A stretch of 32,004 bases of DNA from Clostridiales bacterium. GTDB taxonomy: Bacteria; Bacillota; Clostridia; Christensenellales; Aristaeellaceae. The DNA lies in assembly GCA_015056395.1 (NCBI GenBank), contig SVGK01000005.1, forward strand, positions 1 to 32,004. The letters are read 5' to 3'. A program made the position numbers and the translations under genes. How positions within the stretch are numbered: position 1 is the stretch's first letter; every line of letters starts with the position of its first letter. The notes under the pieces are model-generated. The model worked only from the letters and a program-made list of their open reading frames with translations. It was not told the origin of the DNA and did not search any database. Of this stretch, positions 832 to 26,935 are shown one piece after another.

Positions 832-2253
832 TTATTTTGCGAACAGATGGATGTTTTCGAACCGGACCTTTCCCTCGGAGGCGAAGAGGCCCCAATGGCC
901 GCCCGTGATGTCGAACATGCGCGTCCCCATGGCGATGCGGCCGTCCAGGTAGACCTCCAGCACAGTGCCGTCCACGCAGACGTCTATGTGCACTTTCCTG
1001 CCCAGCTTGTGCTGCAGCGGGCGCTCCTGCTCCACCTCATAGGGGAACTTCTGGCCGCCGCGCTCCGTCATGCGCACGCCGGACTTGAACTCCAGCCGCT
1101 GGTTGAAGAGGTCCGCTATGGCGTAGTAGCCCACGGCGAAGCCCTCGTCCACGTGCAGCGCGACGCCGAACTGGGCGGTGTCCGCAAGCAGCTCCGCATC
1201 CATGGACAGGCGGCAGGTCCCGGCGATGTCGTTCAGAAGCAGCGCCGCATAGCCATAGGGCGTATCCGCGGTCCAGGCTTCGTCCGCATTGGTCCACGCG
1301 CCGGACAGGGGCCTGGCCGCCACGCTCTGTTCATCGCCGAAGGCCGCAAGCACCGTGTCCAAGGGCTTTACGTACAGCATGCCCCGCTCGTCCTGCCAGA
1401 GCTCGTGCACGATCAGGCTGCCGCCCCAGTCCCATGTGTTGCAGTCGAGCCCATCGTGCTGCTGCGGATCGAAGAAGTGCTGGTTGCACTCCCGCGTGGG
1501 GTTCCAGCCGTATATGAAGCGGCGCGTGCCGTCCGTGCCCGTCTTGGCGGCGTAGAACGCCCGGGTGTCGAACGTGTCGATCTCAGGCGTCAGCCAGGGG
1601 CCTTCCGGGCTGCGGCTCATGCGGTACAGCGTCTGGAACCTGTCGGCGTAGCAGGAGAACACCAGATAGTACCAGTCGCCCCACTTGAACATGTCCGGGC
1701 ACTCGAAGGCGCACTGCGCGTCCATGGGCGCGTACAGAGGCTGGCAGAACTCCCAGTGGTGCAGGTCGTCCGACTTGCACAGGCCCACGCAGGCGCGCCG
1801 CGTGGTCGGGCCTTGCTTCTGCGCCGCGAATATCATCCACCAGCGCTTCTCGTCCTCGTTCCAGAACACGAAGGGATCGCGGAAGTGGACGGGCGCGTAG
1901 ATGTCATCGTCCGAGCGGAAGCGGTCCTCCGGGATCTCACGCCAGGTGTCCAGATCCTCGCTGACGGCATGGTCTATGTAGTTGCGCTCCGGATCCTGCT
2001 GGAACGTGCAGAAGAACATGTGGTAGAGCCCGTCCACATTGATCACGGAACCCGTGCCGCCCACGATATGGGTGTCGTGCTCCTGAAAGTGCACGTGGTC
2101 CTTGGTGGACAGCATCACCCAGCTGTCGTGGTGATCGGCGTCGCGGTTGCCCCTGTAGTTGCGCAGGTAGAAGGGCTTGAACGTCCCGTCGTCGAAGAAG
2201 GGGATCACGTCGCCCAGCACGGCCCGTTCAGGCCTGTAGTAAACAGCCATCAT
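832..2253 (-). CDS. Glycoside hydrolase family 32 (beta-fructosidase-like), second of tandem pair
   Basis: This is a 473-residue intracellular enzyme with no signal peptide. It is expected to hydrolyse beta-fructosides such as sucrose, its phosphate, or fructo-oligosaccharides. The family's three acidic sites are visible. The nucleophile Asp is probably D15 in GDVIPFF, which replaces the usual NDPNG. The RDP motif is at 125-127, and the ECPD motif gives the acid/base E184. Residues ~330-473 form the C-terminal beta-sandwich. The ATG at 2253 overlaps the TGA of the upstream GH32 gene (ATGA). A second ATG at 2250 is 7 bases from the AAGGAGG sequence and could be the true start. The protein is closely parallel to its neighbour: the RDP and ECP motifs fall at identical residue numbers. 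This suggests tandem duplication followed by divergence. Substrate is not readable from sequence. Confidence 0.9.
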   Translation of the reverse strand: MMAVYYRPERAVLGDVIPFFDDGTFKPFYLRNYRGNRDADHHDSWVMLSTKDHVHFQEHDTHIVGGTGSVINVDGLYHMFFCTFQQDPERNYIDHAVSEDLDTWREIPEDRFRSDDDIYAPVHFRDPFVFWNEDEKRWWMIFAAQKQGPTTRRACVGLCKSDDLHHWEFCQPLYAPMDAQCAFECPDMFKWGDWYYLVFSCYADRFQTLYRMSRSPEGPWLTPEIDTFDTRAFYAAKTGTDGTRRFIYGWNPTRECNQHFFDPQQHDGLDCNTWDWGGSLIVHELWQDERGMLYVKPLDTVLAAFGDEQSVAARPLSGAWTNADEAWTADTPYGYAALLLNDIAGTCRLSMDAELLADTAQFGVALHVDEGFAVGYYAIADLFNQRLEFKSGVRMTERGGQKFPYEVEQERPLQHKLGRKVHIDVCVDGTVLEVYLDGRIAMGTRMFDITGGHWGLFASEGKVRFENIHLFAK

Positions 2254-3686
2254 CGTCCCTCCTTCGTAAACAGGCGGATGCTCGTGAATGAAGCGCCGCC
2301 GTCCGCCACGGCCAGGCCGAACTTGCGTCCGTGCAGGTCATAGGCGCGCGTGGACAGTGCGATCTCGTCGTTCACATACAGCACCATCACGCTGTGATCC
2401 ACATACAGCGCCACGTCGTAGCGCTTTCCGGGCGTGAGCGCCAGCGGGCGGGACAGCTCCACGTCCCACGGGAAGGTCCAGCCGCCCTGCTCGTGCATGC
2501 GCAGCGCGCTCTTGTACTCCACGCGCTCGCGCTTCGGGTCGAAGTAGAAGTAGTAGCCCCGGGCGAACTCGCCGTCCACCTGCACGGCCAGCGCCACGCG
2601 GTCCGTGCCGGGGCGGAACGTGAACGACATTTCGAAGCGGCACACCTCGGGCACGTCGTTCACGGTAATCAGGCTTGCATAGGACTGAGGGCTTTCGACC
2701 GAAGCGGTCCCGTCGCCCGCGTCCCAGGCTCCGTTCAGGGGCATCCACTTGAGCCGGTTCTCCACCGTCAAAGCCTCTTTGAGTGCGGGGATCGGGCGCA
2801 CGGCCAGCGTGCCGTCCTCATGCTGCCACACCTCGTGCACCACCATGCTGCCGCCCCAGTCGTAGGTTTTGTAGTCGTATCCCTCGTGGCGTGTATCCGG
2901 GTCGAAGCCCCAGGTGTTGCGCCCGCGGGTCGGGTCCCAGCCGTATATGTAGCGGCGCTCACCGTCGGTGCCGGTCTTGGCGGCGTAGAAGGCGCGCGCG
3001 TCGAATGCGTCGTTTACGGGGCGCAGCCACGGGCCCTGCAGGCTGCGGCTCATGCGGTAGACGGTCTGGAAGCGGTCGGTGAACTGGGAGAACACCAGGT
3101 ACCACCAGCCGTTCATGAAGAACAGGTCGGGGCACTCGTAGGCGGACATGCTCGCCTCGGGCGCGTAGAGCGGCCGGCAGCAGGTCCAGGCGTGCAGGTC
3201 GTCCGACTTGCAAAGCCCGACGCAGCCCCTGCGCAGCGTAGGCCCCTGCGCCTGCGCGCACACCAGCATCCACCAGCAGTGCTCCTCCTCGTTCCAGAAC
3301 ACGAAGGGATCGCGCCAGTCCGTGGGTAGGTACAGGCTCTCGTCGGGGCCGAAGGTCTCCTCCGGCAGGGGCGTCCAGTGCGCCAGATCGTCGCTGACGG
3401 CGTGGCAGATGTACTGCCGCTGCGGGTCGCGCCTGAACACGCAATAGAACATGTGGTACACGCCGTCCGATTTTAATACGCTGCCCGTGCCGCCGCGTAT
3501 GCCGGTGGGCGTCTCCGAGAGTATGTGCAGGTTGTCCTGGGTGGTCAGCATGTGCCAGCCGTCGGTGCGGTCGGCGCCAAAGTAGTCGTTCCAGTTCTTC
3601 AGATAGAAGGGCTTGAACACGCCCTCGTCAAAGAACGGTATCACATCGCCTACCCGCGCGTGCTGCGGGGTGTAGAACAGGTCCAT
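2250..3686 (-). CDS. Glycoside hydrolase family 32 (beta-fructosidase-like), first of tandem pair
   Basis: This is a 478-residue GH32 enzyme without a signal peptide, so it is cytoplasmic. The likely nucleophile is D14 in GDVIPFF, RDP is at 125-127, and the acid/base E184 is in YECPD. A five-bladed propeller should span about residues 10-320, with a beta-sandwich after it. An in-frame ATG exists at 3707, but the AAGGAGG box lies between it and the ATG at 3686 with 7-base spacing, so 3686 is the start. It is the first gene of an operon with the downstream GH32 gene, which overlaps it by 4 bases, and probably the sensor gene. The WMNDPNG box of classical invertases is absent, so this belongs to a divergent GH32 branch. 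An intracellular fructan-oligosaccharide role is inferred. Confidence 0.9.
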   Translation of the reverse strand: MDLFYTPQHARVGDVIPFFDEGVFKPFYLKNWNDYFGADRTDGWHMLTTQDNLHILSETPTGIRGGTGSVLKSDGVYHMFYCVFRRDPQRQYICHAVSDDLAHWTPLPEETFGPDESLYLPTDWRDPFVFWNEEEHCWWMLVCAQAQGPTLRRGCVGLCKSDDLHAWTCCRPLYAPEASMSAYECPDLFFMNGWWYLVFSQFTDRFQTVYRMSRSLQGPWLRPVNDAFDARAFYAAKTGTDGERRYIYGWDPTRGRNTWGFDPDTRHEGYDYKTYDWGGSMVVHEVWQHEDGTLAVRPIPALKEALTVENRLKWMPLNGAWDAGDGTASVESPQSYASLITVNDVPEVCRFEMSFTFRPGTDRVALAVQVDGEFARGYYFYFDPKRERVEYKSALRMHEQGGWTFPWDVELSRPLALTPGKRYDVALYVDHSVMVLYVNDEIALSTRAYDLHGRKFGLAVADGGASFTSIRLFTKEGR

Positions 3687-3709
3687 AGGGCATCCTCCTT
3701 CCTGCATCC

Positions 3710-17321: not shown

Positions 17322-20300
17322 TTATCCGTTTACGATGACCAGCCTGTCCGTACAGCCTTCGAACGCGGTGCCATCTATGCTCGTCACGCTGTCCGGCAGC
17401 ACCACAGCCACGAGGTTCGGGCAGTCGGCGAAGGCGCGCGGTCCGATGGATGTGACGCCTGCGGGTACCACGATCATCTGTGCATGAACGCCCAGGAACG
17501 CTTCCTCGCCTATCACGCCGAGACCGGAGGGAAGCGTAAGTACCTTGCCGCGGTCGACCACCGCGATGCGATGTTCGCCGCCCCAGCCGGGTTCGTGCCC
17601 CTGGCTCCATACGCTCACACCGGCTGAATATACAGTGCCCGCTTCGAGCGCTTTTCCTTCGTAGAAACCTTCGATGATGTAGGTGCCCGGTTCATCGTAA
17701 TCATGGTCGAGTATCCATTCAACCTCATCCTCCATTGACACCTTGTACCATTCGACATTCTCCGAATACCCGAAACTGAATTCGATATCGTCGCCGTACC
17801 AGACGATCGAGGGGAAGTGCTGCTCGGGCGCTGTAAGCGGACCAGCGGAGGTCGTCTCAACGATATAGCTCTGTCCGGTCGCGGACCACACGCCGCCAAA
17901 CATGGCCTGTGCGTAGACGGTATGGTCGACATTGGACCACCACCAGAGTGTCCCCTCGCCGTGTTCGCCGTCGAAGTACAGCTCGCTGTCCCAATACCCG
18001 TCGGGCGTGACCGCGATGACGCGGATCTGCTCCGCGCCGGGGGCGTCGACCGTGAAGGGCAGGTCCTGGCCTATGGGGACGGTGAGGGCGGAGAGGGAGA
18101 GGGTGACTCGGGTATCGGGGGACTGTCCGTCTGACCATACCGCATGGAGTACGGTGCCTCCGTTGGGTATGGTGATCGGTTCGGGAAGAACATCGCCGTC
18201 TTTTTTGCTGCTCCATCCGCAAAAGATCATTCCCGGTCGTTCTGGCACGAGGGAGGGAATCTCGTCGCCTTGCTGTCCCATGATGAATCCGATCAGATCG
18301 TCTCCGGAATAGTACAATACGGGGAATTCGTTATACGTGAATCCCTGTCGCCTGATCTCATCCGATGCCGGTCCCTGCTCAGGTCCATAGAAGACGCAGG
18401 TACTTGGTATGAACTGCCACCAGTTTGATTCGAAAGTATCCAGTGCTTCTGAGACGAAGATGGTCGAGATGGTATAGGGATGACCTGCGTTATGTGTGAA
18501 TCTGAATGAATGTGATGTGATGGCGGTACAATTGTCGGACAGTATCAACGTATCATCCGTTCTTGCTCTGGGGACTGCGATCAATCTGCCGTCGGTTGAG
18601 TAGAGCGCATTGTCAAATTCATAGAAATGCTTGTTTTCCGGGTCGACGAATATAGATTGCAGGCAGTATGCATAGTCAAATGCGCTTACATCGATTGATG
18701 TGACGGAGGATGGAATGTACACAACTGTCGTGCCATAGTCGATACAACTGCTGGGAAGAGTTGTGACCCCGTCGGGGATCTCCAGCACAGTTGCGCCATC
18801 GGGATGATAATAGGAGCCAAGAACTCCATTGTCAACAGTCAGATAATCGGCAGACCATTGTGCATACAAGGTCGTTTCTTTAGCTGGCATAGTAAACTCG
18901 ATGCCTGCGGGCATAAGTGCGTTTTTGTCAGTTTCAAGATACCAGCCCTGGAACGTCATCCCATCCCTTCCTTTTGGTGCGAACAGCGCAAATGTCTGTC
19001 CGGCAGGTAGGTTCCAATCGTCTGATTCCTTGCCGTGGACGCTTTCAAAGTGAAGGGTATACAGTTGAGTGTTTACGGGAATGCTTATGCTTGATATGAT
19101 GCGGCGATGAATCGCGGGATTCGTCTCATTGTATGTGAAGGCCTCGTCGGCAATTGTCGTATCGGCCGGTATGGAAAGGTCGCAGAGCGAATAACAGTAC
19201 GAAAACGAATGGTAGCCGATTTCCGGCGTTCCATCGGCGATCTCCAGCGATTCGAGCGCGTACAGCCTTTCAAAATTCATCAGGCCCTCGATTGCACCAA
19301 TTTCAATGTCTTTCAGACGATAACATTTGATCAAATTGACGCTTTCCACGTCGCCAACAGTGATCGCATCCAGAGTAGGGCAGTCTTCCAACCATAACGC
19401 GCCCATTCTCTCACTGTTATTGATAATAACGGTATCCATAGCTCCTTTTATGGTGATGTCGTTGCATTTACGGCAATTGATGATGACCTCCGACAGCATC
19501 GGAGATTCGATCTCGATGCTCCCATTGATCGTGTCGGCATTTATGTTGACGGATGTAAAGTATTGGCCGACAAGGCAGATGTCCCCATTGATCGTTTCCG
19601 CGTCGATCACGACACTCTTAGCACCGGAATACAGCGCACCCGAATTCAATGTCAAAGTGTCACTGTGGATCGTCAGACTGTCCAGACCGAAGGTGTCTAC
19701 AAAAGCGAATTCATCGATTTCTGAAACGGTGAGATCCAGATTTCTGAGCGATGAGCACTTTGCAAACGCATATGTACCGATTTGTTGAAGTGGAACATCG
19801 ATACTGACACTTTCAAGGTTTGAACATCCATAGAAACAATAACGCGGTACCGTTCTGACTGCTGAAGGCCAAGAGAGACTGGTCAAACCAGAATCAGAGA
19901 AAGCAGAATCGCCAACGGATACTATGCCCTCAGGAAGTGATAAAGAAGTCAGAGATTTACAATTTGAAAACATGTATTCATCAACAATTTTCAACGACGA
20001 AGGTAAAACGACGTTTCTCAATGAAATGTCAGATGTGAAGCGCGGCACATCCTGTGCGGATTCCGAAAGCTTCACTGACACCAGATTAGGGCAGTTGTGG
20101 TATGAACCGCATTGAATCATATTGTCATTGCACGTCACGGTCCTTAGGTAATAACAGTTGGGATATCCGCTCGTGCCGACGACCATATCACCGAATACGA
20201 GATTCGTCGTATGACTGCCGGATTGGTCGCCATACGCGACATAGAGGGGATAACTTGCGTAGTTTCCTGTCCATATCCCTTTGAAGGCAGAGGCCTCTGT

Positions 20301-22337
20301 GGTATTGCCTGCTTCGACGAGCTTGTCATAGATAGTACTCAAGTAATACTGCTGCGGATCGTTTCCGTACGCATGGATCCTGCAGACCTCTTGGCCATCA
20401 AACTCCATAAGCCCCAGATACCAGACGTTGTAGGGCCTTATATACCAGTTTGTCGTTGCCGGAAGATCAGAATCCTTCTCCCAATCAGCGGTCAATGTTT
20501 TGTAGCCAGACCAATCTATAGGTTGGTTGTATGTGTCAAAGGGGAATCTGTTTCCGTCTTCGTCGATCCAGCCTTTGAAGCCATACCCCGGACGGACCAT
20601 ATTCCAATCATGACCTCTGCAGTCATAATATGTATCATACATCGAGAGATCGACGATGATGGGTTCGACTCCCGATATAGCCGGGTCCATGATCAGACCG
20701 CGTTGACGCGTGCATTGATCTGTGCGGCGGTATTCGCCATAGCGACTCACTTCAAAATGGCCGGTCTCACCGTTTTCCAGCTCTGCCCCGTTACAATAAA
20801 ACTTCGTATCAAAGCGGGCATTTTCCCATTCCTTGGTGATGTATACGGATGTGACCATTCCGGCTGTGACGCCAGCATGTACGCCAAACCCCAGATCCCA
20901 TTCATTCGACCAGTAATATTTGTAGTCTACAAATTTGAATTTCGAATCCTTCTTAAGGTTCCTCAAGAACGGGATAGCAGTCACATCCAAACCCGGCGTG
21001 AGCGTGACCTGCGTACGCCAGACGGCATCGTTGGTCACGTCGATGCAGTTCTTGGTTCCTTCGAATTCCTCAACGGTGCTTGATACGACCTCGCGCTTCC
21101 AGGACGGACCTGTGACAACTTCGAGTAGCGTTACACACTCAAGAAAATCGGCGGAGATTCCAAAGTTGATGGCGATCTCTTCGCCATGGTTCTGAATAAT
21201 TTGGGTGTAGCCCGCTTCAGGTGAACGATACAGATTCGTCCATGTTCCTGTCGCATCGTTATAAGAGAACCCCATGTGACCATTGTTGAACACAATGCTC
21301 TTAGTGCTGCTGTCGGTATTCGTGAGCTGCAGCATTGCGAACAACTTAAGGCTGAACTTTGTAGGCCCCAGCGGAATGGGGCAGGAACCGATCTCAATCT
21401 CATGAACGCCATTGTCAAACCATATACGTTCCTTTGCTTGTCCGATTTCCAACTCTACTGCGAAATCTGTTTCGAATCGAATCGATTCGATGAATTGCTG
21501 CGATGCATCGATCACCGGTGCATCCTCGCGCAGGGAATGAAAAGGTATTCCAAGCATTCCCATAAAACCGGCGGTATTGACACGGATCTCAAAGTCTGTG
21601 TTGAAAACGTGGATGCGGCCATTCAATCCAAACAGGTTTTTCAGTACATCGATTATATGTCTATCGGTATTCGTGTATTCCGCTACTGCGACGCCGTCTT
21701 CCCAATGTATGCTTCCGTTTCCGCCTCTCGAGGCGTGGTCCACGCGGATGATGATTTCGTCGTAAGTATACATGGGATCCAACTCGACAACCGTTGCGAT
21801 GGATCTGCCATCCGAATTGGTTAACGTTGAGATCTGCCATGCTGTATTCTTCTCTGGGACGTACAGCAGCTGGGCTGGCTGCAACATTCTTCCAAGGGCA
21901 GGGCTCAAACTGTAACGGTCAGACGACATGATATAGTAATCGCTTCCGGTGAGGTCGACGACGACGTCGGAAAAATCCAGATCCGAAAGATCCACCGCAT
22001 GATAACCGTGCGCCTCTGCCCAATCCAGGACCGGAGCGCCATGCTTTGCCTTGATGCGCACGCCAGAAGCGATGCAGCCATCACTGAAATCAATCAGGGC
22101 GACTGGTACCGTGACGCTTTGGGCTGATGACGGTATGGCATCCTGATCAATTCCCATTACATAATGATCTCTGAGTTTCTCCGGGATCGAAGGATTGTTG
22201 TTCGTCCCCCTGTACTCCGTGATGTGGGCAAACCCCTCGTCGTCCACGCGATAGCTCCATTCCTCTGCGGCCAGGGCGCATACGGTCAGGGCAATTACGC
22301 TTGAGACCAGCAGCAGAGCGATCAACAGCTTTTTCAT
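17322..22337 (-). CDS. Giant exported protein with BspA-type leucine-rich repeats and InlB-B repeats
   Basis: This 1671-residue protein has a signal peptide (MKKLLIALLLVSSVIALTVC-ALAAEE). The first ~560 residues are beta-rich with no recognised family. InlB-B/Listeria-Bacteroides-type repeats (GWxx...G...TL-A-W pattern) occur near 570-620, 1110-1162 and 1360-1405. BspA-like LRR_5 repeats (pattern LTSLSLPEGIVSVGDSAF) occupy about 700-1090, 1166-1260 and the last ~80 residues. No LPXTG, SLH or C-terminal membrane anchor is seen, so it is probably secreted or held non-covalently. Such proteins often mediate adhesion to hosts, mucin or other bacteria. The frame is open upstream to 23165, but ATG 22337 has GAGG and a signal peptide, and the upstream part crosses two promoters and a riboswitch. 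Codons between ~18.3 and 22.3 kb are AT-rich, unlike the C-terminal 300 residues. Confidence 0.9.
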   Translation of the reverse strand: MKKLLIALLLVSSVIALTVCALAAEEWSYRVDDEGFAHITEYRGTNNNPSIPEKLRDHYVMGIDQDAIPSSAQSVTVPVALIDFSDGCIASGVRIKAKHGAPVLDWAEAHGYHAVDLSDLDFSDVVVDLTGSDYYIMSSDRYSLSPALGRMLQPAQLLYVPEKNTAWQISTLTNSDGRSIATVVELDPMYTYDEIIIRVDHASRGGNGSIHWEDGVAVAEYTNTDRHIIDVLKNLFGLNGRIHVFNTDFEIRVNTAGFMGMLGIPFHSLREDAPVIDASQQFIESIRFETDFAVELEIGQAKERIWFDNGVHEIEIGSCPIPLGPTKFSLKLFAMLQLTNTDSSTKSIVFNNGHMGFSYNDATGTWTNLYRSPEAGYTQIIQNHGEEIAINFGISADFLECVTLLEVVTGPSWKREVVSSTVEEFEGTKNCIDVTNDAVWRTQVTLTPGLDVTAIPFLRNLKKDSKFKFVDYKYYWSNEWDLGFGVHAGVTAGMVTSVYITKEWENARFDTKFYCNGAELENGETGHFEVSRYGEYRRTDQCTRQRGLIMDPAISGVEPIIVDLSMYDTYYDCRGHDWNMVRPGYGFKGWIDEDGNRFPFDTYNQPIDWSGYKTLTADWEKDSDLPATTNWYIRPYNVWYLGLMEFDGQEVCRIHAYGNDPQQYYLSTIYDKLVEAGNTTEASAFKGIWTGNYASYPLYVAYGDQSGSHTTNLVFGDMVVGTSGYPNCYYLRTVTCNDNMIQCGSYHNCPNLVSVKLSESAQDVPRFTSDISLRNVVLPSSLKIVDEYMFSNCKSLTSLSLPEGIVSVGDSAFSDSGLTSLSWPSAVRTVPRYCFYGCSNLESVSIDVPLQQIGTYAFAKCSSLRNLDLTVSEIDEFAFVDTFGLDSLTIHSDTLTLNSGALYSGAKSVVIDAETINGDICLVGQYFTSVNINADTINGSIEIESPMLSEVIINCRKCNDITIKGAMDTVIINNSERMGALWLEDCPTLDAITVGDVESVNLIKCYRLKDIEIGAIEGLMNFERLYALESLEIADGTPEIGYHSFSYCYSLCDLSIPADTTIADEAFTYNETNPAIHRRIISSISIPVNTQLYTLHFESVHGKESDDWNLPAGQTFALFAPKGRDGMTFQGWYLETDKNALMPAGIEFTMPAKETTLYAQWSADYLTVDNGVLGSYYHPDGATVLEIPDGVTTLPSSCIDYGTTVVYIPSSVTSIDVSAFDYAYCLQSIFVDPENKHFYEFDNALYSTDGRLIAVPRARTDDTLILSDNCTAITSHSFRFTHNAGHPYTISTIFVSEALDTFESNWWQFIPSTCVFYGPEQGPASDEIRRQGFTYNEFPVLYYSGDDLIGFIMGQQGDEIPSLVPERPGMIFCGWSSKKDGDVLPEPITIPNGGTVLHAVWSDGQSPDTRVTLSLSALTVPIGQDLPFTVDAPGAEQIRVIAVTPDGYWDSELYFDGEHGEGTLWWWSNVDHTVYAQAMFGGVWSATGQSYIVETTSAGPLTAPEQHFPSIVWYGDDIEFSFGYSENVEWYKVSMEDEVEWILDHDYDEPGTYIIEGFYEGKALEAGTVYSAGVSVWSQGHEPGWGGEHRIAVVDRGKVLTLPSGLGVIGEEAFLGVHAQMIVVPAGVTSIGPRAFADCPNLVAVVLPDSVTSIDGTAFEGCTDRLVIVNG

Positions 22338-22614: not shown

Positions 22615-22643
22615 TTGACCCCCGTCCCCGCAAGTGCTATAAT
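22615..22643 (+). promoter_or_regulatory. Promoter of the cobalamin-riboswitch unit
   Basis: TTGACC at 22615-22620, 17 bases, TATAAT at 22638-22643. The transcript would start near 22650 and so contain the whole aptamer. Confidence 0.88.
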
Positions 22644-22649
22644 ATCCTT

Positions 22650-22900
22650 GAGGCCGTCCAAAGGACGGCAAATCATCCACACAAGGGACAAAGGGTGCGC
22701 GTCATCCCGCACATGCGGGACCGGGACGCGAGAATAGGGAAGCGGGTGCGATCCCCGCGCGAACTCGTCACCGTGAAGGGAGAGAGACTGTGCGATACGC
22801 GCCACTGGCGAAAGCCGGGAAGGCCGCGCAGGCTCGCCTGATCCCCAAGCCGGGAGACCTGCCCTCTGTCGACATGGAGACCGGCCACGAGACACTGGCC
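22650..22900 (+). promoter_or_regulatory. Cobalamin (B12) riboswitch aptamer
   Basis: Characteristic blocks appear in order. AGGGAAGCGGGTGCGATCCC is near 22736-22755. GCCACTG is at 22801-22807. GCCGGGAAGGC is at 22814-22824. The B12 box AAGCCGGGAGACCTGCC is at 22847-22863. Conserved hairpins lie between them (for example CCCGCACATGCGGG near 22716). In such RNAs cobalamin binding normally turns the downstream gene off. The 3' limit is approximate. Confidence 0.95.
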
Positions 22901-22957
22901 GGCGCCGCAGCGTCGTAAACGCACGGGCAGCACTTGCCCCTGCGTTCATGTCCTGTG

Positions 22958-22997
22958 CTCCTGTCGGCTGCGTCCCAACGTGGAAAATCGACAGGAG
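22958..22997 (+). promoter_or_regulatory. Shine-Dalgarno-sequestering hairpin (riboswitch expression platform)
   Basis: CTCCTGTCG at 22958-22966 is perfectly complementary to CGACAGGAG at 22989-22997, which contains the ribosome binding site of the chelatase gene (ATG at 23009). No T-run terminator lies between the aptamer and the gene. Control is therefore probably at translation initiation, with competing stems at 22881-22902 and around 22918-22946. Confidence 0.7.
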
Positions 22998-23008
22998 GAG
23001 AGGGACCC

Positions 23009-23932
23009 ATGAAGAAACTGCTTGCACTGATACTAGCGCTGACGCTCGGCCTGACATGCGCATTTGCGCTGGCCGAGGACGAGGAGAACTACGAGACCGG
23101 CGACGCGTCGCTGGACGATGCGCGCAACCAGGACGACATCGGCGAGAAGGAGCTGCTGGTCGCATCGTTCGGCACGTCCTTCAACGACAGCCGCAGGCTC
23201 ACCATAGGCGGCATCGAGTCCGCATTGGAGTCGGCCATGCCGGACTACAGCGTGCGCCGCGGCTTCACCAGCCAGATCATCATCGACCATGTGCTCTCCC
23301 GCGACGGCGTTGAGATCGACAACATCGCCGCTGCGCTCGAGCGCGCGGAGAACAACGGCGTCAAGGTGCTGGTCGTGCAGCCCACGCACCTGATGGACGG
23401 CTTCGAATACACTGACCTGGTGAACGAGATCGCCGAGCACGCGGATGCCTTCGAGGCGGTCAGCGTGGGCCAGCCGCTGCTGTCCACCGACGAGGACTTC
23501 GCGCGCGTCGCGGAGGCGATCGTCGAGGCGACCGCGGAGTACGACGACGGGCAGACCGCCATCGTGTTCATGGGACACGGCACCGAGGCGGACTCCAACG
23601 CCGTCTATGAAAAGATGCAGGGCGTGCTCGCCGACATGGACAAGGCCAACTACTACATCGGCACCGTCGAGGCGGAGCCTTCCGTGGAAGACGTGATCGC
23701 GGCGATAAAGGACAAGGGCTACAAGCGCGTGGTGCTGCGCCCCATGATGGTGGTCGCGGGCGACCATGCCAACAACGACATGGCGGGCGACGAGGAGGAC
23801 TCCTGGAAGACACTGTTCGCCAACGAGGGCTACGAGGTCGTGACCGTGCTGGAAGGCCTTGGCCAGATCCCCGCGATACAGCAGCTCTACGTCGAACACG
23901 CGCAGGCCGCGGCCGCGTCTGTCGAGGGGTGA
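23009..23932 (+). CDS. cbiK: Exported sirohydrochlorin cobaltochelatase (CbiK-like)
   Basis: This 307-residue protein has a signal peptide (MKKLLALILALTLGLTCAFA-LAEDE) and an acidic linker to ~46, then a CbiK/HemH-type two-lobed chelatase. Start of domain: ELLVASFGTSFNDSR. The metal- and tetrapyrrole-binding residues of CbiK are all present: H190 (FMGHG), E221 (GTVEAEP) and H253 (AGDHANNDMAGD). Classical CbiK inserts Co2+ into sirohydrochlorin in the cytoplasm. An exported version parallels the periplasmic CbiK of Desulfovibrio and may serve metal or tetrapyrrole capture. ATG 23009 follows GGAGGAGAGG. It is under a cobalamin riboswitch, and the next gene starts 8 bases later. Confidence 0.9.
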   Translation: MKKLLALILALTLGLTCAFALAEDEENYETGDASLDDARNQDDIGEKELLVASFGTSFNDSRRLTIGGIESALESAMPDYSVRRGFTSQIIIDHVLSRDGVEIDNIAAALERAENNGVKVLVVQPTHLMDGFEYTDLVNEIAEHADAFEAVSVGQPLLSTDEDFARVAEAIVEATAEYDDGQTAIVFMGHGTEADSNAVYEKMQGVLADMDKANYYIGTVEAEPSVEDVIAAIKDKGYKRVVLRPMMVVAGDHANNDMAGDEEDSWKTLFANEGYEVVTVLEGLGQIPAIQQLYVEHAQAAAASVEG

Positions 23933-23939
23933 TGGACAT

Positions 23940-24782
23940 ATGAGGCGCATCATCGCTTTGCTGATCGCCGCGCTTATGTGCGCGAGCGCGTGCCTGGCCG
24001 AACAGGTGGACACGTCGCACGTGGCCGATGCGGGCGACAGGATCGCGGCGGAGGACGTGCTCGAACCGGGCATGCAGCCCGTGGCCGCGGAGGCGCTCGC
24101 GGACGGCACGTATGACGTCGCGGTGGACAGCTCGTCTTCGATGTTCAAGATCGCCTCGGCGACGGTCACGAAGGAGGGCGACGCGCTGACGGCGTCGCTC
24201 GTCATCGCGTCGGACAGCTACATGTACCTCTATCCCGGTACGGCCGAAGCGGCGGCGCAGGCCGAAATCGATCAGCTCGTCGCGCCGGAGGCCCTCGGGG
24301 AGGACGGCAACCGCTTCACCTTCGCCATCGACGCGCTGGACGCGCCCGTGGACTGCGCGGCGTTCTCCCGCGCAAAGCAGCAGTGGTACCCGCGCGTGCT
24401 CGTGTTCCGCGCGGACTCTCTGCCCGCGGAGGCCTTCAACAGTGCGGAAGGCGCGGCGCTCGAGGACGGCGCCTACGCCATACCCGTGCGCCTTGAGGGC
24501 GGTTCGGGCCGCACACAGGTCGAGAGCCCGGCACAGGTCATCGTGCAGAACGGCGAGGCCACGGCAAGGCTCGTTTTCAACACGGAGAAGATCGACTTCG
24601 TCATGGTCGGCGATGAGAAGTTCCTGCCCGAATACGAGGACGGGACCGCGGTATTCACGCTGCCGGCCGCGTCGCTTGCGCGGCCCATGGCGGTAGACGT
24701 CGACAGCACGGTGATGAAGCCCGCGACGCTGGTCAGGTACACGCTCAGCTTCGACGCGGATCAGGCCGGACACATCGACTGA
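23940..24782 (+). CDS. Exported two-domain surface protein, putative metal/tetrapyrrole binding
   Basis: This 280-residue protein has a signal sequence (MRRIIALLIAALMCASAC); Cys18 may be lipidated or cleavage may follow CLA. Two beta-sandwich-like domains are visible. The first spans about 54-161 (DGTYDVAVDSSSSMFKIASA ... QQWYPRVLVFRADSLP). The second spans about 176-272 (DGAYAIPVRLEGGSG ... VMVGDEKFLPEY ... TLSFD). Both begin with DG-Y and resemble the NEAT-like domains of clostridial surface proteins found with iron, haem or corrinoid uptake genes. The family name is uncertain. ATG 23940 lies 8 bases after the CbiK-like stop, so the two are co-translated and share B12 control. A terminator follows at 24798. 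Confidence 0.8.
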   Translation: MRRIIALLIAALMCASACLAEQVDTSHVADAGDRIAAEDVLEPGMQPVAAEALADGTYDVAVDSSSSMFKIASATVTKEGDALTASLVIASDSYMYLYPGTAEAAAQAEIDQLVAPEALGEDGNRFTFAIDALDAPVDCAAFSRAKQQWYPRVLVFRADSLPAEAFNSAEGAALEDGAYAIPVRLEGGSGRTQVESPAQVIVQNGEATARLVFNTEKIDFVMVGDEKFLPEYEDGTAVFTLPAASLARPMAVDVDSTVMKPATLVRYTLSFDADQAGHID

Positions 24783-24797
24783 GAGAATGACGGACGC

Positions 24798-24833
24798 ACG
24801 GGGATCTGAACGAGTTTTCGGATCCCCGTTTTT
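24798..24833 (+). terminator. Terminator after the B12-controlled pair
   Basis: ACGGGGATC at 24798-24806 pairs perfectly with GATCCCCGT at 24821-24829, followed by a TTTTT run to 24833. It separates the chelatase unit from the two-component genes. Confidence 0.88.
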
Positions 24834-24864
24834 CAAAAGAACTCTCATTACAAAAGAACGCTCA
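24834..24864 (+). repeat. 14-base direct repeat before the response regulator gene
   Basis: CAAAAGAACTCTCA at 24834-24847 and CAAAAGAACGCTCA at 24851-24864 differ at one base and are spaced by TTA (17-base period). They fill the space between the terminator and the ribosome binding site of the regulator gene, where a promoter or binding site would be expected. No clear -10/-35 pair was found there. Confidence 0.8.
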
Positions 24865-24875
24865 AGGAGGCCCAT

Positions 24876-25556
24876 ATGCGAGTCCTGTTGGTCGAGGATG
24901 AAAAGAACCTCTCCTCCGCGATATGCCGTATGCTCAGGAAGGACAACATACTGGTCGACCCCGTGTACACGGGCACAGACGGCTATGACTATGCGCTTTC
25001 GGGCATATACGACGCGGTGATACTGGATGTGATGCTGCCGGGCATGGACGGCTTCAAGGTGCTTGAGAAGCTTCGCGGCGAGGGCGTCGCCACGCCCGTG
25101 TGCATGCTCACCGCGCGCGCCGGTCTGGACGACCGCGTGCACGGCCTGAACAGCGGCGCGGACTATTACCTGCCCAAGCCCTTCCAGATGGAGGAGCTGC
25201 TGGCCTGCCTGCGCGCGATCACGCGCCGCAAGGACGAGACGCCCGTCATGGCGCTGGCGTTCGGCGACGTTGCGCTCAACCAGGGCGAGGCGAAGCTCAG
25301 CTGCACGGCCACGGGACAGTCCGTGAAGCTGGGTGCGAAGGAGTTCCAGCTGATGGAGCTGTTCCTGCGCAATCCCAGGCAGATACTGCCCAAGGATGTC
25401 ATCATAGAGCGCATATGGGGCTATGAGAGCGACGCGGAATACAACAATCTGGAGGTCTACGTCTCGTTCGTGCGGAAAAAGCTGACGTTCGTGGGCTCGA
25501 AGGTCAAGATCAAGGCCTCGCGCGGCGTGGGCTATTCGCTGGAGGAAGAGGCATGA
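24876..25556 (+). CDS. OmpR/PhoB-family response regulator
   Basis: This is a 226-residue DNA-binding regulator. The receiver domain (1-118) has E7 and D8 of the acidic pocket, the phospho-acceptor D51, T79 and K101 (LPKPF). The C-terminal winged helix (about 130-224) has the family's PKDVIIERIWGYESDAEYN and VSFVRKKL motifs and the KASRGVGYSL end. ATG 24876 follows AAGGAGG by 5 bases. The stop overlaps the kinase start (ATGA). It is likely phosphorylated by that kinase. The signal and the targets are unknown. Its placement next to the B12-controlled genes is suggestive but a terminator lies between. Confidence 0.96.
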   Translation: MRVLLVEDEKNLSSAICRMLRKDNILVDPVYTGTDGYDYALSGIYDAVILDVMLPGMDGFKVLEKLRGEGVATPVCMLTARAGLDDRVHGLNSGADYYLPKPFQMEELLACLRAITRRKDETPVMALAFGDVALNQGEAKLSCTATGQSVKLGAKEFQLMELFLRNPRQILPKDVIIERIWGYESDAEYNNLEVYVSFVRKKLTFVGSKVKIKASRGVGYSLEEEA

Positions 25557-26935
25557 TACGCGCGCTCAGGCGGAGGATGATACTCACCGTACTGGCCGGC
25601 CTTCTGTTGGCCAGCGCGGGCGTCGTGTTCTGCATAAACGCATTGAACCAGCGCGACATACGCACGCAGGTCGAGCAGGTGCTCTCGCTCCTGATCGAAA
25701 ACGGGGGCGAGAGGCCGCTGGGCCGGGGCGGCAGACCGTCGGACGGGAGCTTTTCACAGACGGCGACAAGGCCGCCGCTGCCGGACGACATGGAGGCGCT
25801 GAGCGCCTCGGGCCAGCAGCCGAACGGCATGCAGCCCATGGGGCCGGGATACGGGAACGAGCCGACAGAAAGACGTGATGGCCTCATGAGCCAGCGCCTG
25901 GACGAGGTCAGCCGGGCGGGCATGTCGAACTACTACACGATATGGCTCGACAAGAACGGCACCGTGCAGGACTGGGTCAGCGACCGCGCGGACCTGTACA
26001 CCGACGATGAGATCGCGGATATGGCGGCGCAGGTCTTCGTAAAAGACAGCGCGTCGGGCAATATCGGAAGCCAGTATTTCAAACGCAGCGACGGCGAAGA
26101 CAGCGTGCTGATCGTCGTGGTGGACGCGCGCGTGGAGCAGCAGAACGCGCGGAGCGTGCTGCGCACGACCGCTCTCGCGGCGCTGATCGAGGACATACTG
26201 CTCTCCATCGGGGCGATACTGATCGTCAACAGGCTGATCAGGCCGGTCGACCAGGCGTTCGAAAAGCAGAAGCAGTTCGTATGGGACGCCAGTCACGAGC
26301 TGAAGACGCCGCTTGCGGTCATCTCCGCCAACGCGCAGGTGCTGGAAGGGGAGATCGGGAAAAGCGAGGAGCTTGCGTACATACGCTCCGAGATCGACCG
26401 TTCGGACGCGCTGATACAGAACCTGCTCGCGCTGGCGCGCATGGACAAGGATCCGGGCCGCCAGCCCATGGAGCGCTTCGACATGAGCCGCGCCGTGCTC
26501 AGCGTGGCGCTGCCGTTCGAAAGCGTCGCGTTCGAGGCGGGCCGTACACTCGAGACGGATGTGCCGGAGGGTATATCCGCATTCGGGAACGAAGAGATGG
26601 TCAAGCAGCTTGTGGTGATACTGCTGAGCAACGCTGTCAAGTACTCCGACGACGCAGGCACGATACGCGTCTCGCTGGCCGAGAAGGGGGAAAGGCGTAT
26701 ACTCAGGGTATACAACACCGGCGACGCGATACCCGAGGAGGCGCAGCAAAAGATATTCGACCGCTTCTACCGCGTTGACCAGTCCCACAATTCCGAAAAG
26801 CCCGGCAGCGGGCTGGGGCTGGCCATCGCAAAGAGCATCGTGGAGATACACAAGGGGCGGATCGACGTGACCAGCGCGCCCGAGCAGGGCACGACGTTCA
26901 CGGTGACGCTGCCGGGAAGGGGAGGAAGGAGTTAG
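25553..26935 (+). CDS. Membrane sensor histidine kinase
   Basis: This 460-residue kinase has two membrane helices (about 8-30 and 204-226). The extracytoplasmic part between them begins with a Gly/Pro/Gln/Met-rich low-complexity stretch (52-105) and continues with a compact sensing domain. The H box contains H248 (WDASHELKTPLAV), the N box N360 (LLSNAVKYSDD), and the ATP-binding G boxes include VYNTGD and GSGLGLAI (418-425). No PAS or complete HAMP domain is seen. It overlaps the response regulator gene by 4 bases and phosphorylates it by family rule. Its TAG stop lies inside a heptanucleotide repeat array, so the last residues may have been altered by repeat insertion. Confidence 0.95.
   Translation: MIRALRRRMILTVLAGLLLASAGVVFCINALNQRDIRTQVEQVLSLLIENGGERPLGRGGRPSDGSFSQTATRPPLPDDMEALSASGQQPNGMQPMGPGYGNEPTERRDGLMSQRLDEVSRAGMSNYYTIWLDKNGTVQDWVSDRADLYTDDEIADMAAQVFVKDSASGNIGSQYFKRSDGEDSVLIVVVDARVEQQNARSVLRTTALAALIEDILLSIGAILIVNRLIRPVDQAFEKQKQFVWDASHELKTPLAVISANAQVLEGEIGKSEELAYIRSEIDRSDALIQNLLALARMDKDPGRQPMERFDMSRAVLSVALPFESVAFEAGRTLETDVPEGISAFGNEEMVKQLVVILLSNAVKYSDDAGTIRVSLAEKGERRILRVYNTGDAIPEEAQQKIFDRFYRVDQSHNSEKPGSGLGLAIAKSIVEIHKGRIDVTSAPEQGTTFTVTLPGRGGRS

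Follow-up and report, generated by a model that had tools for sequence, protein, structure and literature searches.

How can a cobaltochelatase that lies outside the membrane serve B12 synthesis in the cytoplasm? The question was raised by two adjacent genes in a 32,004-nucleotide stretch of Clostridiales DNA (contig SVGK01000005.1), here called the window. A preliminary description of this sequence had seen an exported CbiK-like chelatase paired with a NEAT-like two-domain surface protein under B12 control, and held that such a chelatase could not obviously contribute to cytoplasmic B12 synthesis. We annotated the following features at the locus.

22615..22643, plus strand: predicted sigma-70-like promoter, TTGACC-17-TATAAT with TG before the -10 element (11/12 in a consensus scan)
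22676..22880, plus strand: cobalamin riboswitch aptamer, RF00174 (Rfam, 92.7 bits, E 5e-22)
22945..23010, plus strand: predicted expression platform, a hairpin that by folding would sequester the cbiK Shine-Dalgarno region
23009..23932, plus strand: gene for a CbiK-family cobaltochelatase of 307 aa, predicted to be exported (ORF; PF06180)
23940..24782, plus strand: gene for an exported protein of 280 aa with two NEAT-fold domains (ORF; ATG at 23940)
24798..24834, plus strand: intrinsic-terminator-like hairpin with a 13-bp stem, then UUUUU, closing the two-gene unit

The B12 control claimed for the pair is supported by the riboswitch, and in relatives from several genera, isolates among them, RF00174 aptamers likewise lie upstream of the orthologous operons. 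In the hairpin 3' of the riboswitch, CUCCUGUCG pairs with the Shine-Dalgarno region of cbiK, and the minimum free energy (MFE) of the segment 22925-23020 that holds this expression platform is -41.8 kcal/mol (z -3.84). We infer that switching operates through this hairpin upstream of cbiK. The consensus scan returned 3 promoter-like sites in the region, compared with 0.6 in shuffles. Only 7 nt separate the chelatase gene from the NEAT gene. The terminator-like hairpin, which was absent from the pattern-scan list, has an MFE of -22.4 kcal/mol over 24785-24845 (z -3.05). Directly after it, genes for an OmpR-type response regulator and a histidine kinase occupy 24876-26935 on the plus strand; this two-component system was not seen as a conserved neighbor in relatives. 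Divergent from the riboswitch operon, a gene on the minus strand (17322-22337) encodes a 1,671-aa BspA-type leucine-rich-repeat protein with Listeria-Bacteroides repeats, and two mutually similar GH32-type glycoside hydrolases of 473 and 485 aa are encoded in tandem at 832-3707, also on the minus strand.

The identification of the first protein as an exported CbiK-like chelatase carrying H190, E221, and H253 was borne out. It matches the Pfam CbiK family PF06180 with an E value of 8.8e-79 (264.9 bits; cut-off, 26.2). It scores 224.2 bits against the NCBIfam equivalog SiroCoChCbiK (NF047852), below the cut-off of 400, which by sequence places it in the same superfamily but outside the curated equivalog. 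The three catalytic residues are invariant in an alignment of 15 relatives and aligned with those of 1qgo. Solved relatives are FetB (9b86), which is the best PDB match (E 1.9e-49), CbiK (1qgo), and a further chelatase (2xvx), which we take to come from Porphyromonas gingivalis, Salmonella, and Desulfovibrio, respectively. The N terminus, MKKLLALILALTLGLTCAFALA, resembles a signal peptide over about residues 1-22, with a classical n-h-c stretch. A strongly hydrophobic N terminus is present in 77 of 80 chelatase relatives, many of which have a lipobox, and in two relatives three S-layer homology (SLH) domains precede the chelatase domain; export of the window chelatase is therefore a well-supported prediction. 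Cytoplasmic CbiKs of relatives begin directly at the catalytic domain, and the exported Firmicutes CbiKs and their cytoplasmic relatives fall into separate clades with full support in a tree built without the Desulfovibrio protein. A search of the window's own genome found no second CbiK.

The NEAT-like, two-domain character of the partner was likewise upheld. The protein scores 16.3 bits against Pfam NEAT (PF05031), under the cut-off of 32.8, and its Evtepia orthologue clears that cut-off with 33.6 bits. A sequence-profile search against the PDB yielded only chance aminotransferase matches, so the assignment rests on the fold and on the orthologues. In a Foldseek search with the AlphaFold2 model (pLDDT 87.5), NEAT domains ranked ahead of everything else (IsdX1, E 1.5e-5, TM 0.70 by target length), and the protein is thus NEAT by predicted fold. 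All solved NEAT matches of the model are haem carriers. The two domains (about residues 50-168 and 172-273 of 280) are homologous to each other (hhalign probability, 96.7); VIA gave a Z of 12.4 for domain 2, and domain 1 aligned only in two-domain rows. Y150 and Y267 are invariant among relatives in the sequence alignment, and either might correspond to a haem-ligand tyrosine of the last NEAT hairpin. No second NEAT protein was found in the window's genome (G000).

The recurrence of the pair in other genomes, on which the preliminary description had staked its interpretation, proved widespread. We searched 200 genomes of the family for the exported CbiK and the NEAT protein: the chelatase was present in 31, and 30 of these also had the NEAT protein, which occurred in addition in one CbiK-less genome. 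We also analyzed 80 loci from named genomes, of which 62 extend more than 4.5 kb downstream; as the 80 were picked as best matches to the exported query, the counts measure consistency and not unbiased frequency. Among the 62 loci, a NEAT gene adjoins the chelatase gene in 59, a BtuF-type protein is encoded nearby in 58, a FecCD permease in 57, an ATPase in 56, and cbi genes in 28. The pair thus recurs across many genera, which rules out a lone-gene artefact. Gene models in the relatives' high-GC contigs came from codon-scored calling and are not curated; at one locus (L090), Pfam confirmed the binding protein, permease, ATPase, tetrapyrrole methylases, CbiG, CobO, and CbiJ. The window pair itself, closed off by the terminator-like hairpin, has no gene for a binding protein, permease, or ATPase next to it. 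In one genus (L091, L092, L093, and L100), a NEAT-BtuF gene lies beside ribosomal and ssb genes and not beside the cbiK pair; the components can therefore be scattered.

Searches with domain profiles made from the window protein, together with Pfam, revealed that the parts are also fused to one another. CbiK-NEAT-NEAT fusions occur at six loci (L124, L130, L143, L145, L156, and L193), SLH-CbiK-NEAT fusions at two (L184 and L189), and NEAT-NEAT-BtuF fusions at five (L140, L149, L152, L169, and L180). At L181 (the same as L204), a single lipobox protein of 777 aa combines CbiK (residues 47-300), NEAT (316-423), and periplasmic-binding (501-738) domains, a CbiK-NEAT-BtuF arrangement followed downstream by FecCD, ATPase, cbiD, cbiF, cbiG, and cbiH. 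This joining of chelatase, carrier, and receptor is the strongest evidence that all three handle a single shared ligand.

The preliminary description had also reported that no corrin gene lies nearby. This is correct within the window, but a different contig of the genome bears cbiD, F, G, H, and E, and many relatives have the pair embedded in the anaerobic cobalamin (cbi) operon. HemB, HemC, CobA, and CbiL were not found in G000, the assembly of which is 80% complete. With ring genes present and HemB, HemC, and CobA absent, this genome and two single-contig relatives have the gene content that defines precursor salvagers. CbiD is present in all 31 family genomes with exported CbiK, compared with HemC in 4, HemB in 3, and a true CobA in 5; 27 of the 31 are without HemC, and 26 are without both HemC and CobA. 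Six of these 26 kept CbiL (G016, G031, G036, G070, G077, and G095), and 20 are also missing CbiL, including the window's genome and two single-contig genomes. Most of the genomes are incomplete assemblies, so that absences carry most weight in those that are single contigs or better than 93% complete, and the genomes behind these counts are not phylogenetically independent. A permissive methylase scan of the single-contig genomes G162 and G184 uncovered no hidden CbiL or CobA; their methylases were CbiF, CbiH, CbiE, an RsmI-like protein, and a partial match in a protein of ∼510 aa that we took for YabN-type. CbiL methylates cobalt-factor II to cobalt-factor III, which is then contracted by CbiH (PMC7242693). 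Thus, the retained set would begin at cobalt-factor III in most of the family genomes and at cobalt-sirohydrochlorin in those that kept CbiL.

A CbiK without a signal was found in 5 of 33 CbiD genomes (G060, G061, G159, G171, and G039), all five of which have CobA, and the first four are exactly the 4 genomes with HemC (p = 1.2e-4, phylogeny ignored). This pattern suggests that the chelatase is kept inside where the ring is methylated inside and is otherwise only outside, with G017 as an exception. G017, from the window's genus, encodes an exported tandem double CbiK with NEAT, BtuF, and FecCD (L076 and L107) and has CobA-HemD and CbiL; HemC and HemB were not found in it, and it fits no simple salvage scheme. 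In G039, which has a cytoplasmic CbiK and is without HemB or HemC, CobA is joined to a NAD-binding siroheme-synthase domain and lies beside two FecCD transporters. FecCD/BtuF sets adjoin such a CobA-siroheme-synthase-domain protein at L109:6406-13364 (G039) and at L117, and these sets likely form a uroporphyrin(ogen) importer, that is, salvage one step earlier. Three of the genomes with HemC (G060, G171, and G159) encode a relative of the NEAT protein that is anchored in the membrane, together with an ABC-2 permease and an ATPase (L083:7578-14440, L084, and L085), a cluster that adjoins cbiL, a cobA-hemD fusion, hemC, and hemB and at L083 has a cobalamin riboswitch upstream. At L199, an ABC-2/ATPase/cbiL set is divergent to the exported-cbiK operon. 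The ABC-2/NEAT cluster might export a tetrapyrrole.

Outside the family, 37 of 50 genomes with exported CbiK are without HemC and 36 are without CobA, and the 13 with HemC all have CobA. Three cultured strains with exported CbiK are without both HemC and CobA, namely, Evtepia gabavorous KLE1738, Ruminococcus flavefaciens Y1, and Fusobacterium naviforme ATCC 25832, making the salvage hypothesis testable. In Evtepia, the riboswitch is followed by an uninterrupted series of cbiK, NEAT, btuF, btuC, btuD, cbiD, cbiL, cbiF, cbiG, cbiH, cbiJ, cbiE/T, and cbiA, then CbiB, CobD, CobQ, and CbiC homologues; R. flavefaciens kept cbiL in its cbi cluster.

In our view, the chelatase-NEAT pair probably belongs to a salvage system, repressed by cobalamin, that serves metal-free precursors of the B12 ring. 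Low B12 would cause the riboswitch to free the ribosome site, and the set would be expressed. The chelatase, anchored outside the membrane, would insert Co(II) into isobacteriochlorins that the cell scavenges from its microbial neighbors: presumably sirohydrochlorin (factor II) in genomes with CbiL and already C20-methylated factor III in those without it, an assignment that follows from which genes are absent. The NEAT domains would hold the (cobalt-)tetrapyrrole and hand it over, a BtuF-like protein, often itself NEAT-bearing, would deliver it to the FecCD/ATPase importer, and cytoplasmic CbiH-F-G-D-J-E/T-C-A and later enzymes would complete the corrin ring. We infer the identity of the substrate, catalysis, transport, and the direction and order of hand-over; gene linkage, fusions, the riboswitch, the presence of cbi genes, and the absence of HemB, HemC, and CobA, often with CbiL, are features of the genomes. 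Where HemC is present, in 13 of the 50 outside genomes and 4 of the 31 family genomes, salvage would be supplementary. The opinion that an extracytoplasmic chelatase could not serve cytoplasmic B12 synthesis is thus contradicted by the genomes, since the exported chelatase sits with an ABC importer and cbi genes where the tetrapyrrole-making steps are missing. Surface capture, also suggested in the preliminary description, is supported for corrin precursors and is less likely for haem, given the cobalamin regulation and the linked cbi genes; taken as a whole, that earlier interpretation is partly supported.

The ligand could instead be a corrinoid or haem. If the system were one for plain uptake of B12 or cobinamide, BtuFCD would act with NEAT corrinoid binders, and the chelatase would bind extracellular cobalt or corrinoid or re-metallate metal-free corrinoids. 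A FecCD/BtuF family importer under a cobalamin riboswitch is indeed the usual setting of a B12 transporter, but this explanation, which we regard as unlikely, accounts neither for a catalytically intact chelatase that is kept and fused nor for the conservation of ring-building cbi genes in the absence of HemC, CobA, or CbiL. We give somewhat less credence still to haem-iron acquisition, in which the exported CbiK would strip iron from haem or swap porphyrin metals, NEAT would bind haem, and the ABC transporter would import haem or porphyrin, a scheme put forward for FetB/IhtB of P. gingivalis. FetB, the closest relative of the chelatase with a solved structure, is, after all, named a haem-binding protein, and every solved NEAT match is a haem carrier; FetB is reported in a review to make Mn-protoporphyrin (PMC13402209), and IhtB is described as a putative ferrochelatase or reverse ferrochelatase (PMC13227078). 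Against this stand the cobalamin riboswitch, operons that run on into cbi genes, and the fact that the co-varying genes are corrin genes, and the source of the tetrapyrrole for the cbi pathway of these genomes would be left unexplained. In a third alternative, the cbi genes would be relics in decay, and the chelatase-NEAT set would have some unrelated function at the surface. This would agree with the loss of early pathway genes from many genomes, yet it is highly improbable in view of long, intact cbi runs with an order conserved over many genera, riboswitch control and fused parts, and gene losses that end sharply at the point predicted by salvage.

Salvage of metal-free precursors by the chelatase-NEAT set, if true, would explain where corrin-making bacteria without tetrapyrrole synthesis obtain the ring, identify a transport system for intermediates at the sirohydrochlorin level, and extend the role of NEAT domains beyond haem. 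Bacteria that cannot begin B12 synthesis could nonetheless complete it, with a gene set that is widespread in gut bacteria; predictions of cobamide auxotrophy from gut and rumen genomes would change, since organisms at present scored as "incomplete" B12 makers may be ones that enter the pathway late. Cobalt-starved producers release sirohydrochlorin- and factor III-type factors. It is conceivable, if on the doubtful side, that cobalt insertion outside the membrane is a community process, with metal-free sirohydrochlorin and factor III as public goods among gut bacteria. CbiK-NEAT lipoproteins would then add the metal at the surface, and the resulting cobalt isobacteriochlorins would be imported. 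Producers may export the ring via the ABC-2/NEAT cluster that in some relatives lies with cbiL-cobA-hemD-hemC-hemB.

Parts of this system have known counterparts. The window chelatase shares the CbiK family, the H-E-H set, and an alignable whole catalytic domain with Salmonella CbiK (1qgo/2xwp), which unlike it is cytoplasmic, and with the periplasmic CbiK of Desulfovibrio (2xvx). Neither of the two is known to have a NEAT partner or to be fused to NEAT domains. A B12 element controls cbiK-cbiL as well as btuCDF in Desulfovibrio (PMC545781). P. gingivalis FetB/IhtB (9b86) is likewise an exported CbiK homologue, and P. gingivalis is without the steps to precorrin-2 (PMC6461909), as are exported-CbiK genomes here; it differs in being described in haem/porphyrin metabolism and is not known to have a NEAT partner. 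The parallel suggests sirohydrochlorin as a substrate to consider for the debated function of FetB/IhtB. IsdX1, IsdX2, IsdH, and Hbp2 share the NEAT fold and are surface proteins that pass a tetrapyrrole toward an ABC importer, but their sequence similarity to the window protein is weak and its control is by cobalamin and not by iron; unlike these carriers, the NEAT proteins studied here have a cobaltochelatase as neighbor or fusion partner and are linked to cbi genes. Both exported CbiKs and haem carriers with NEAT domains are thus already known, and precursor salvagers have been predicted from genomes (PMC6461909). In the open-access literature, we found no report joining NEAT with a cobalamin riboswitch or a cobaltochelatase, which is no proof of novelty; as far as that search extends, an extracytoplasmic cobaltochelatase with NEAT carriers and a dedicated ABC importer for B12 synthesis is undescribed. 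A further precedent is the class of tetrapyrrole precursor salvagers of Shelton et al., mostly Firmicutes, which likewise have corrin-ring and loop genes and miss early tetrapyrrole genes; that class was defined by its missing early steps and tested with ALA, and it differs in that no uptake at the sirohydrochlorin level and no transport or chelatase machinery was named (PMC6461909).
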